From positions 1 to 53,260 of the forward strand of contig NZ_JAUXNK010000063.1 of the NCBI RefSeq assembly GCF_030682845.1: a stretch of DNA of 53,260 nucleotides, in the 5' to 3' direction. The stretch is from Methanolobus sp. Its GTDB lineage: Archaea; Halobacteriota; Methanosarcinia; Methanosarcinales; Methanosarcinaceae. The position numbers and the translations under genes were made by a program. Below, in pieces: positions 26,069-31,342 of the stretch. The notes under the pieces were generated by a model. The model saw only the letters and a list, made by a program, of their open reading frames with translations. It was not told where the DNA came from and did no database searches. Numbering within the stretch: the first letter of the stretch is position 1; each line of letters opens with the position of its first letter.

Positions 26069-27046
26069 TCAGGCTCTGTCCATAAGGTGATCGGCTGCTA
26101 TTTCAGGAGGCATTGAGTTTATGTAAATGCCTGTGTTCTTCTCAAATCCTGCAGCTATGGATGTGACAGGCTGTATCCTTGCGCTGAAGTGATATTCCGG
26201 GTTACCTTCTGTCTGGAAGAACATATAATTATATGCAAGTTCAGGTATTGTGGCATCCAGCCTTGAAACCGCGTATCTCAGGCAATCTCCCAGGGAAAAG
26301 AGCATCTCATCAGTTAATACGGACAGATGGTGCACATGCTGTTGTGGCAGTATCCATAGTTCATAGGGCACTCCCGAACAGTAGGGAGCTATCACTATGA
26401 AATAGCTGTTCTCGTATATCTGCCTCTTACTGCCTTTCTCTCTTTTAACTATATTACAATAGGGGCACTCTGCAAGATGGCGGATAGCCTGTAGTTCCAC
26501 AGAAATTTCGGAAGGCAGAAGCGGGAGTGCAATGAGCTGGGAGTGTGTATGGTCAAGGGAGGCACCTGCCTTCTTGCTCCAGTTCTTGAACAGTGATACA
26601 TATTTGATCCCTTCCTGTGACTGGTAGTGCATTACCCTGTCCCTGTAAACCTGCATCAGAAGCAATATCTCTTCATCGGAGAACAGGTGAAGCCTGCTGC
26701 CATGCAAAGGGTGCTCCACGATGACCTCATGAAAGCCGTAGCCCCTCAGAACCTCAAAACCCGAAGTTGCCGCTTCCGGGGCATCGGGAGAGAGTGCAGG
26801 GTACAGGTTTGGGATACACCGGACATCCCATCCTGTCACACGCTGACCATCAGTATCTTTCAGCACCTGTCCTTTTTTATATACTGAAGTTGCAGGAGGT
26901 GTCTCTTCTTCGTGCCCACTGCAAAATACACAGGTTGATGAGGGTATGTCATCATTGCATGCTTTTGGAGCAGAGGGCCTTTTAGCTCTGCCCGTGGCTA
27001 TTATGCAGTGCCTGTCAAGGAAATAATGCTTGCGTATCTCGGACAT
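26069..27046 (-). CDS. galT: galactose-1-phosphate uridylyltransferase-like protein
   Basis: About 325 residues of the HIT superfamily GalT fold. The N-terminal zinc pair CVFC and a later CPYC are present. The first half ends in the nucleotidyl-transfer motif HTHSQ, corresponding to the HxHxQ of GalT in which the middle His carries UMP. The C-terminal half has YELWILPQQHVHHL. It would exchange nucleoside monophosphate between sugar-1-phosphates and so make or salvage the nucleotide sugar used by neighbouring transferases; UDP versus ADP specificity is not visible. The ATG at 27046 has AAGGATGG upstream; a TTG two codons earlier would overlap the glycogen synthase stop. Confidence 0.85.
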   Translation of the reverse strand: MSEIRKHYFLDRHCIIATGRAKRPSAPKACNDDIPSSTCVFCSGHEEETPPATSVYKKGQVLKDTDGQRVTGWDVRCIPNLYPALSPDAPEAATSGFEVLRGYGFHEVIVEHPLHGSRLHLFSDEEILLLMQVYRDRVMHYQSQEGIKYVSLFKNWSKKAGASLDHTHSQLIALPLLPSEISVELQAIRHLAECPYCNIVKREKGSKRQIYENSYFIVIAPYCSGVPYELWILPQQHVHHLSVLTDEMLFSLGDCLRYAVSRLDATIPELAYNYMFFQTEGNPEYHFSARIQPVTSIAAGFEKNTGIYINSMPPEIAADHLMDRA

Positions 27047-29093: not shown

Positions 29094-29735
29094 TCAGGGG
29101 AGGGTAATGAATGACACGTATGTATTCCACAATCCGGTCGCGATAAAGTTCACAGCCAGGGCTGCAAGCAGAAGGCCCATCAGTCTTGTGAATACCAGCA
29201 TCCCGGTATATCCCACGAATTTGTATATCCTTCTTGAGAACCTGAACAGCACAAGGCTGATGGCGAATGTAAGTAATATCGATACGATGACACTGATGCT
29301 CTGTATCACAGAAGCTGCACTGCTCATCAGCACGATAACTGTGGATATGGCTCCAGGTCCAGTAAGAAGAGGCAGAGCTATCGGGAATATCCATATGTCG
29401 CTGCGGTCAATGGAACTATCTATCTCGCTATCAGTTATGCTTTCGCGGGAAACTTTCCCAAGTATCATATCAAACGCGACTACAAAGAGAAGGACACCGC
29501 CCGCTATCCTGAGCGAATCTATGGTTATGCTGAAGAAATCCAGGATAAGGCCGCCTGTAAAAGCAAAAAAGAGGGCTATGATACAGGCAAGTATCACTGA
29601 TTTATTTGCAATTATGTTCTTCTCTTCAAATGTTATGTTGTTCGTGAGCGAGACAAAGGTCACGACCCCGCTCAAGGGACTGACTATAGCGAAAAGGGAA
29701 AGAAAAGAGCCAAGAAAGAATGCCATGTCCTGCAC
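29094..29735 (-). CDS. MarC-family integral membrane protein
   Basis: A 213-residue membrane protein with six helices in two groups. Family pieces include FLSLFAIVSPLSGVVTF near the N-terminus, RIAGGVLLFVVAFDMILG in the middle and PLLTGPGAISTVIVL after the charged loop. The C-terminus RLMGLLLAALAVNFIATGL is normal for MarC. Function is unproven; despite its name the family is not an established antibiotic exporter. The start is GTG with GGGAG 9 bases before it; an ATG three codons later lacks this spacing. A P-type ATPase tail fragment follows in frame. Confidence 0.88.
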   Translation of the reverse strand: MQDMAFFLGSFLSLFAIVSPLSGVVTFVSLTNNITFEEKNIIANKSVILACIIALFFAFTGGLILDFFSITIDSLRIAGGVLLFVVAFDMILGKVSRESITDSEIDSSIDRSDIWIFPIALPLLTGPGAISTVIVLMSSAASVIQSISVIVSILLTFAISLVLFRFSRRIYKFVGYTGMLVFTRLMGLLLAALAVNFIATGLWNTYVSFITLP

Positions 29736-30030
29736 TGTGATTACTCCCTACCGTTTTTAGAACCATTCTTACTATACATAACATTTGTGGTCTCAATTTA
29801 TGATAAATGGGCGTTAAAGGTAAAGAAAGCCTTACGACTTCATTTGTAGGGATGACTGGAGTCTTATTCAGAATTATATCTGCCTATTACAGTTAACTAC
29901 ATTTGTTCTTTATTTTACTTATCAACAAAATAAGTGCTGAAGTTTTAATAGCGCTATAATACATGGCTTTGTATGAATATAGTACGTCTGGTCAAATTCA
30001 GCATCCATGCATAATTCACTAAGGTTTAGG
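29736..30030. other. AT-rich intergenic region upstream of marC
   Basis: About 295 bases between the marC start (read leftwards) and the candidate RNA element. It contains AT-rich stretches suited to the marC promoter and a short palindrome TAGCGCTA near 29946. No coding frame is convincing. Confidence 0.35.
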
Positions 30031-30180
30031 TTATATAAAAATAGGACGTTGTATGTTATGCGGGTCGTGGGGAATGAGCCGCAATCTGGGAGGGGATTAT
30101 TTGAGAGATGTTGGGGAACATCTCGGATTCGTTAGGAGAGAGGCGCCTTAAAGCGTGGTGGTTTCCAGGCGCCTCATCTT
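30031..30180 (+). ncRNA. candidate structured small RNA
   Basis: TTATATAAAA at 30031-30040 looks like an archaeal TATA box. About 25 bases later begin three hairpin-forming segments in tandem. These are GCGG/CCGC (30060-30063 with 30079-30082), a perfect 8-base stem GAGATGTT-GGGG-AACATCTC (30105-30124), and a 9-base stem GAGGCGCCT/AGGCGCCTC (30140-30148 with 30167-30175). G-rich single strands (GGGAGGGG) join them. No reading frame spans the region. The strand is inferred from the TATA box. It may be a trans-acting sRNA; I cannot match it to a named family. Confidence 0.4.
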
Positions 30181-30192
30181 ACCTTGAATTGT

Positions 30193-30290
30193 ACTGTTTT
30201 AGTCTATAACGTAGATTCTAATATAAAAGTGAATCTGATTGTTTTTGGTATTTGCCTAAAACAGTCAGATTTTTGTGGATTTACTTTTAT
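30193..30290. repeat. nested inverted repeats 3' of the CDF gene
   Basis: Two interleaved inverted repeats occur here: ACTGTTTTAG (30193-30202) with CTAAAACAGT (30256-30265), and ATAAAAGT (30223-30230) with ACTTTTAT (30283-30290). Lying just past the stop of the leftward CDF gene at 30328, they could form alternative terminator-like structures. Confidence 0.45.
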
Positions 30291-30327
30291 TTTGCCGGTT
30301 CAGGCATTATTCTCTCAGAACAGCAGT

Positions 30328-31281
30328 TCATACCTGCAGACTGCATTTGCCGGAGGCGTTCTCAGGTTCAACATGAATGGTCGTGCCGGAAAGATATGTA
30401 ACATGCCGGGCCAGTGAGTTCCTGACTTCCCGGGTTATGTCGTGACCTTCTTTTACTGAAAGATTTGAATCCACAGCAATTGTTATTTCCGCATGCATCC
30501 TGTGGCCTATCCATCTGACCTTGACATCAGTTATATCCAGAACCATTTCGATGTGGCCAATAGCATGCAATATATCATCAACCACTTCCGGATCGACACT
30601 GTCCATCAGCCTGCCAAATACCAGCTTCCCCGAATCCCAGAACACTTTCAATATGGCGACGGTTATGAAAATAGCAGCTATCGGGTCTGCAAGCGGGTAA
30701 CCAAGCCAGACCCCGATGGCACCCAGCAGGACTGCAAGGCTTGTCAGGCCATCGCTTCGGGCATGATATCCGTCTGCCATAAGCGCGGCGCTACCAATCT
30801 CCTTTCCAATCTTTATCCTGTACTGTGCTATCATTTCATTGCCTGCAAAACCCACTATTCCTGCAAGGGCCACAACTTCCACATAAGCTATGGTTCCGGG
30901 ATCAAGCAGAAGCATAATGGCGTTATAGGCAGCAAACAATGCACTGAATAGTATCAGGGCTACTATGGCCAGTCCTGCCACATCCTCTGCACGCCCATAT
31001 CCGTATGTGAACCTTCGGTTTGGCTTCCTGTTGGCTATAGAAAAGGCTATCCACAGGGGTACTGTAGTCACAGCATCGCTAAAATTATGGAACGTATCTG
31101 CAAGCAAAGCCGCACTGCCCGATATATACACAATGACAACCTGGATAGCTGCAATCACAACCAAGCCCATAAAAGATATTTTGACGGCTCTTTTCCCCTT
31201 CTCCGTGCTCAGGATCAAAGGGTCGACAGTCCCATGCTTACCTGCGTGTGCAGCGTTTGGCCCACCATGAAAAATTTTCAT
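30328..31281 (-). CDS. CDF-family cation diffusion facilitator (metal exporter)
   Basis: About 317 residues: a short His-containing N-terminus (FHGGPNAAHAGKHG), six TM helices, and a cytoplasmic ferredoxin-like domain (about 220-310). The metal-site motifs are ADTFHNFSD in TM2 and ADGYHARSDG in TM5, the HxxxD pairs of Zn/Co/Fe/Mn exporters. The C-terminal domain has HAEITIAVD and TIHVEPE with metal-binding His. It would move Zn2+ or another divalent ion out in exchange for protons; the exact metal cannot be read. ATG 31281 follows GGAGGACAGGTG; a GTG two codons upstream is an alternative. Confidence 0.92.
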   Translation of the reverse strand: MKIFHGGPNAAHAGKHGTVDPLILSTEKGKRAVKISFMGLVVIAAIQVVIVYISGSAALLADTFHNFSDAVTTVPLWIAFSIANRKPNRRFTYGYGRAEDVAGLAIVALILFSALFAAYNAIMLLLDPGTIAYVEVVALAGIVGFAGNEMIAQYRIKIGKEIGSAALMADGYHARSDGLTSLAVLLGAIGVWLGYPLADPIAAIFITVAILKVFWDSGKLVFGRLMDSVDPEVVDDILHAIGHIEMVLDITDVKVRWIGHRMHAEITIAVDSNLSVKEGHDITREVRNSLARHVTYLSGTTIHVEPENASGKCSLQV

Positions 31282-31342
31282 GAGCACCTGTCCTCCACTC
31301 CCTGCTTTAATATCCCTATTCCTCCCTTTTGTCCTTATGAGC

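Follow-up and report, generated by a model that had tools for sequence, protein, structure and literature searches.

The stretch of three hairpins at 30031-30180 in the window (the whole 53,260-nt stretch of Methanolobus sp. DNA that was analysed) very probably constitutes a genuine gene for a small RNA, equipped with a dedicated promoter, and this gene is a member of a redundant, dispersed RNA gene family in part of the genus Methanolobus. The TATA-like box claimed in the initial annotation is present on the plus strand at 30031-30040 (TTATATAAAA; family form TTAAATAAA), at a near-constant distance from the first hairpin. Upstream of it, on the same strand (30013-30030), lies a conserved promoter box with the family consensus ATTAA..AAGGTTTAGG, which was aligned across 33 full copies and is a candidate for the published 'cold box' or BRE. 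The putative transcript extends on the plus strand from 30056 to 30200, both ends being estimates, the start from TATA spacing and the end from the TTTT at 30197-30200. The hairpins and linkers within it are likewise assigned to the plus strand. Hairpin 1 (hp1, 30059-30083) has a covarying stem with a G-rich loop side, GUGGGGAA. It is joined by a linker (30084-30104; family consensus GGGAGUGGA in the alignment, GGGAGGGGA in the window) to hairpin 2 (hp2, 30105-30124), an 8-bp stem with the GGGG loop that had been described. A second linker, GGAUUCGUUAGGAGA (30125-30139), is conserved in the alignment and leads to hairpin 3 (hp3, 30140-30175), which has a covarying stem of 9 bp (GAGGCGCCU/AGGCGCCUC) and a small apical stem, the apical sequence being AAAGCGUGGUGGUUU with GUGGUG within the apical loop. 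Of the stem lengths given initially (4, 8 and 9 bp), those of hp2 and hp3 were therefore borne out, whereas the hp1 stem consists of 5 bp, a 1x1 mismatch and 4 bp. The linkers are G-rich, as had also been proposed. Folding of the RNA at 30055-30185 gave -52 kcal/mol (z = -3.40), and none of 200 dinucleotide shuffles was as good.

The stretch had been said to contain no coding frame, and no ORF of at least 60 aa overlaps 30031-30180, the next listed plus-strand ORF starting at 30184. A 33-codon frame begins inside the element and is not conserved across copies. We rejected a small-protein reading: similar peptides recur in several copies, yet start codon and frame are not retained. The ATG of hp2 is present in 45 of 74 distinct rows, and copies differ in their longest frames. 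The two genes that flank the element (29094-29735 and 30328-31287) are encoded on the minus strand. Two interleaved inverted repeats were observed right after the RNA, at 30193-30293 (30193-30202/30256-30265 and 30220-30235/30278-30293). A search for tRNA or tmRNA found none, and scans for sigma-70 promoters and intrinsic terminators, which are uninformative for archaea, also found none.

The three-hairpin structure is under RNA-level selection. Covariation was one of the checks named in the initial annotation, and compensatory changes proved abundant, in support of the archaeal sRNA layout that it had recognised. A plain MAFFT sequence alignment (A1) of 74 modules (71 distinct) was examined against a structure derived from the same sequences, partly by eye; 92.2% of cells were paired and 14 of 17 pairs were changed on both sides (7/8 in hp2, with 87.6% of cells paired, and 7/9 in hp3, with 96.4%). 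The rows used for covariation are paralogues and close orthologues with partly non-independent changes, and the 93 double-changed cells of A1 compare with 32.0 +/- 6.7 in shuffles, 0 of 500 shuffles reaching the observed values. Pairing was at most 53.2% when partners were slid. In a model-fitted alignment (A3) of 81 matches (74 distinct), in which the rows are related and the fitted counts are biased towards structure, 97.0% of cells were paired and 19 of 28 pairs were double-changed (0/500), including all 8 pairs of hp1, where 95.1% of cells were paired. hp1 is diverged or absent in several rows. Over columns 74-150, conservation was hardly different between unpaired and paired positions (0.92 vs 0.91).

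A blastn search with 30000-30200 detected the element in 11 of 60 genomes, all of the window's own genus, with 18 matches in its own genome. A covariance model (R1) was built from 35 rows representing 34 loci (alignment A2), one locus of genome G026 being present twice (as L002 and L043) in both A1 and A2. The window copy is among these training rows, and its full-length match at 30058-30190 on the plus strand (158.6 bits) is therefore obtained by construction; it was the only R1 match in the window at E <= 1e-10, a search run on 65 of 117 sources. At E <= 0.01, R1 matched 12 of 27 Methanolobus genomes. Matches numbered 23 at 18 loci in the window's genome (G000) and 24 at 19 loci in G026, the locus counts taking in weak matches down to E 0.01. 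Elsewhere there were 31 in G013, 22 in G011, 21 in G006, 16 in G016, 14 in G008, 11 in G023 and 6 in G014, and at the low end 2 each in G015 and G018 and one weak match in G003. The latter (24.5 bits) is doubtful, as is a match in G019 (E 0.097). The family-level search (E <= 0.1) returned 14 of 111 genomes, of which only G093 lies outside the genus; this weak match (25.9 bits) was not accepted, as it covers an hp2-like part and overlaps ORFs. An exact 21-nt pattern was found in 17 stretches of named genomes, all Methanolobus (Soudan_28, M. halotolerans SY-01, UBA474 and DJKA59 bin.26), in a sequence collection from which the own genome and near relatives were possibly excluded. Viral, plasmid or phage carriage was found in neither one exact-pattern search nor two blastn searches.

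Full copies share the order promoter box, TATA box, hp1, linker GGGAGUGGA, hp2, linker GGAUUCGUAAGGAG, hp3 and tail. The end of the promoter core is separated from hp1 by 19-20 nt in 31 of 33 full copies and by 18 and 14 nt in the other two, which agrees with the TATA distance expected in the initial annotation. In Methanolobus psychrophilus R15, 81.6% of primary transcripts have their promoters (BRE and TATA) at a distance of about 19-22 nt from the start, according to the accessible part of the transcriptome report (PMC5378194). Promoter-box scores, obtained on the training rows themselves, were at least 21.7 in 32 of 33 sRNA copies and 7.3 in one, with a background 95th percentile of -0.6. 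The stems vary among full copies and the G-rich loops are near-invariant. Two adjacent R1 matches, reflecting a second hp2-hp3 module, were present at 15 of 62 loci (5/19 in G026, 4/10 in G008, 5/18 in G000 and 1/15 in G016). By eye, one copy (L054 3977-4140) has a longer, different hairpin in place of hp2, with hp3 unchanged. Another (L106 3387-3533; G026 887386-887532) is family-like in its 5' half (hp1, linker and the start of hp2), with unrelated sequence in the place of hp3.

A conserved TATA-like box also follows the RNA, at 30216-30230 in the window (family YTAGTATAAAA). In 41 of 52 copies the sequence TATAA occurs within 41 nt of the point where the aligned core of the last module ends, compared to 10.7% of random 95-mers and 20.8% of shuffles; these 52 last modules include orthologues, and in the window the first TATAA encountered differs from the box itself. 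Read on the reverse strand, the box is archaeal-promoter-like (GAGAA..TTTTATACTAGA), a consensus drawn from 43 of the 52 regions with nine that have no clear box omitted. Judged from this promoter-like sequence, an antisense transcript is therefore possible.

Two further checks had been named initially, an Rfam search and a comparison with Methanosarcina sRNAs. Rfam 15 gave 0 matches at gathering score across the whole window, and a relaxed threshold over 29740-30330 gave 8, all far below gathering and none within hp1-hp3, which we took as chance. The Methanosarcina comparison yielded weak, partial matches only. No Methanosarcina homologue was found in the family-level search (111 genomes, stricter filters). 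With laxer filters, two of four genomes of a Methanosarcina-like genus (g11) gave hp3-like matches only, at 31.7 bits (E 3e-4) and 18.7 bits (E 0.28), and these candidates were rejected. The hp3-like hairpin in that genus, GAGGCACC..CGAGGUGG..GGUGCCUCAU, was seen at L117 1501-1617 and L118 1501-1623; in L117 it lies upstream of an ORF resembling an ABC-transporter ATPase, beside repetitive UUGA sequence. We conclude that these structured RNAs form a genuine family, unmatched in Rfam and probably already known in part through the R15 transcriptome.

The accessible part of the R15 report describes nine intergenic sRNAs that are highly conserved, are induced by cold and have an upstream motif in common (PMC5378194). 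G026 is very likely M. psychrophilus R15. Its position 26,651 falls in a 1200-codon ORF of histidine-kinase type with PAS, HisKA and receiver domains (by eye), and the same position in R15 is reported to lie inside a histidine kinase gene with these domains (PMC5378194, accessible part). The G026 fibrillarin gene, at 1,892,797 of 3,072,769, fits a numbering of roughly 3,150 tags; R15 fibrillarin is Mpsy_1937, and the accessible text mentions tags up to Mpsy_3032 (PMC5378194). Nine G026 copies score 126.7-158.9 bits, with the next at 108.7; the nine lie at contig positions 214416, 602119, 760136, 1537332, 1863143, 2445670, 2839932, 2934054 and 3071991. These nine copies above 126 bits may therefore be the nine published R15 sRNAs. 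The identification is probable, not proven: it is based on how many there are, how well they are conserved, their intergenic location and the promoter motif they share, rather than on coordinates or letters. As far as the accessible text describes them, the R15 sRNAs resemble the present family in genus, intergenic position, high conservation and number, and their shared upstream motif may have its counterpart in the family's shared upstream box. In contrast to the family, they are known from that text by description, without sequences, structure or a link to FilR1-type regulator genes. A search of titles and abstract starts found no publication describing the family's structure or its FilR1 link, although this does not prove that none exists; the points for which we found no earlier account are copy number, modular build and FilR1 link.

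How might such a family act? Our leading reading, in which we place about even confidence, is that the copies are trans-acting, redundant sRNAs, probably cold-induced, whose near-invariant G-rich loops bind one shared partner. Each copy would give rise to an RNA of roughly 145 nt with one module set, or up to ~260 nt with a second hp2-hp3 module. Cold induction is suggested by the accessible part of the R15 description (PMC5378194), and the copies would act in trans. The loop and linker motifs common to the paralogues are UGGGGAA (hp1 and hp2), GUGGUGG (hp3), GGGAGUGGA and GGAUUCGUAAGGAG. Because these loops and linkers are common and the flanks and stems differ, a single partner shared by all copies is to be expected, instead of a different local target for each. 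Repeats of the module in the RNA and of the gene in the chromosome would raise both valency and dose, as in protein-sequestering RNAs. CsrB/RsmZ-type RNAs, which sequester a protein, have repeated GG-containing hairpin loops, are multivalent and are encoded by redundant gene copies. The family shares the repeated GG-containing loops, the redundant gene copies and, putatively, the multivalency. Its motifs differ (UGGGGAA and GUGGUGG), its binding is putative, and we know of no CsrA-type partner in archaea. The presence of modules in tandem and of many gene copies suggests that a protein is bound multivalently, a proposal that we consider roughly evenly balanced.

The main and close alternative, though the less probable one, is that the G-rich loops base-pair with a shared C/U-rich target, which would be one or more mRNAs or, through the GGAG-type linkers, the 3' end of 16S rRNA. 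The loops and linkers are indeed G-rich and unpaired, and M. mazei sRNA162 pairs with a regulator mRNA through an unpaired linker (PMC3510493, accessible part); pairing with ribosome-binding sites, however, would need C-rich rather than G-rich sequence. The accessible part of that paper describes sRNA162 (191 nt) and sRNA171 as intergenic with three stem-loops each, sRNA162 adjoining an ArsR-type regulator gene and sRNA171 lying near one, two transposase genes apart, and it takes the pair to be derived from duplication of the locus (PMC3510493). The window element also has three stem-loops, and the family includes copies near regulator genes. By comparison with what is accessible of that description, the 39-nt single-stranded linker between SL2 and SL3 of sRNA162 contrasts with 15 nt between hp2 and hp3 in the window, and the duplicated pair with 18-19 loci per genome (G000 and G026) and tandem modules here. 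A regulator neighbour of the sRNA162 type is absent at the window copy, whereas 8 of the 18 loci in its genome have a FilR1-domain gene no more than 1.5 kb away. By analogy, the family may work like an sRNA162-type sRNA; we do not claim membership.

Proximity to FilR1-type genes extends to other genomes. Nineteen ORFs located near the copies belong to a single paralogous group, and four of them were scanned for domains: Pfam FilR1_middle was found in 4/4 and HVO_A0261_N above cut-off in 3/4. Of the 62 loci in four genomes, 30 have a FilR1 gene within 1.5 kb, and the remaining 32, the window copy among them, have none. The count in G026 was 11 of 19 loci (random mean 0.62, maximum 4 in 5000 draws), whereas the link is weak in G008 (2/10, random mean 0.41). 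For the window's genome a coverage formula gives an expectation of ~0.75, and for G016, with 9 of 15 loci, the same formula gives ~0.6; both genomes are drafts, and loci on contigs without FilR1 were scored as misses. Second pieces of split FilR1 matches were dropped (two in the G026/G008 count, three in the G000/G016 count). Across 27 genomes the numbers of RNA and FilR1 matches are correlated (Spearman 0.71, p 3e-5; relatedness uncorrected), with 12-56 FilR1 matches in the 9 genomes that have at least 6 RNA matches and 6-20 in the other 18. Duplication of a block made up of gene and sRNA together could have produced this link as a side effect. In one locus at the end of the G026 record (L049 7503-7970), an ORF seemingly fuses sRNA-module antisense sequence with a FilR1 reading frame; the reverse strand of the sRNA may have become coding there.

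It is distinctly unlikely that each sRNA controls its adjacent FilR1 gene, by tail-to-tail transcription collision or by antisense pairing with the 3'-UTR. Such a mechanism could draw on the 18 of 62 loci that are convergent with FilR1 at no more than 1.5 kb (in 13 of these, 66-104 nt separate the locus from the end of the FilR1 domain match), and could apply to part of the loci only, since 44 of 62, the window's included, are arranged otherwise. Moreover, the loops are identical regardless of neighbour and the promoters of sRNA and FilR1 genes differ. Use of the sRNA promoter box by FilR1 genes was rejected on 18 upstream regions (best score 1.5, mean -6.2): 2 of 18 exceed the background 95th percentile, far below the 32/33 sRNA promoters. 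In four loci (L035, L039, L048 and L051) a recurrent palindrome-like stretch, AATCGAAAAT..TTTCC..GGGAATATTTTGATT, was seen by eye between the sRNA and the FilR1 side; it may be a terminator hairpin used by both convergent genes.

Four further genomes (G026, G016, G006 and G023) carry this RNA at the window's own locus, flanked by the same two genes. Identity to the window in the hp2-hp3 core (30120-30179) is 0.97-1.00 in all four and the 20-nt promoter block is identical in 5/5 genomes, the window included, whereas the hp1 stretch at 30060-30089 is less conserved (0.60-1.00, with 0.60 reached in one genome). Upstream sequence at 29790-29879 has an identity of 0.10-0.60 in the four genomes; the values are 0.83-1.00 in the other flank (29670-29729) and 0.70-0.97 at 30330-30419, the final 90 bases in the alignment, at the end of the neighbouring gene. 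In G011 the neighbouring genes are retained and the longer interval contains a decayed copy that scores 41.7 bits. CDF relatives in G008 and G022 (63%) were excluded as orthologous sites, no MarC-type neighbour being present in the loci examined. That the copies are non-autonomous mobile elements (MITEs or palindromic repeats) rather than working RNA genes is highly improbable: they are dispersed and variable in number, include decayed copies (L112 3478-3603, L106 3387-3533), and lie beside a DDE transposase ORF in L031 and near a repeated CxxC-type ORF group (IS-like by eye) at 4 of 26 loci, but the compensatory changes, the position of the promoter beyond the stems, the persistence of one locus in five genomes whose flanks align throughout, and the lack of an inverted repeat bracketing the unit in the window all argue against it.

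A more speculative extension of the shared-partner reading, which we think probably goes too far, is that ~20 cold-switched redundant genes, some with tandem hairpin modules, titrate one RNA-binding regulator via their UGGGGAA loops; that the family has co-expanded with FilR1 regulators to form a genus-specific RNA-protein layer in methylotrophic methanogens; and that the reverse TATA-like box drives an antidote antisense RNA. Few archaeal sRNAs, to our knowledge, have a known partner. With ~20 copies per genome, strong covariation and near-invariant loops, the family provides a consensus for an Rfam model and for affinity purification of the partner, and this consensus also allows look-up in the existing R15 cold RNA-seq data. 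Together, these results connect the expansion of FilR1-type regulators with a family of sRNAs, and this relation is directly testable.
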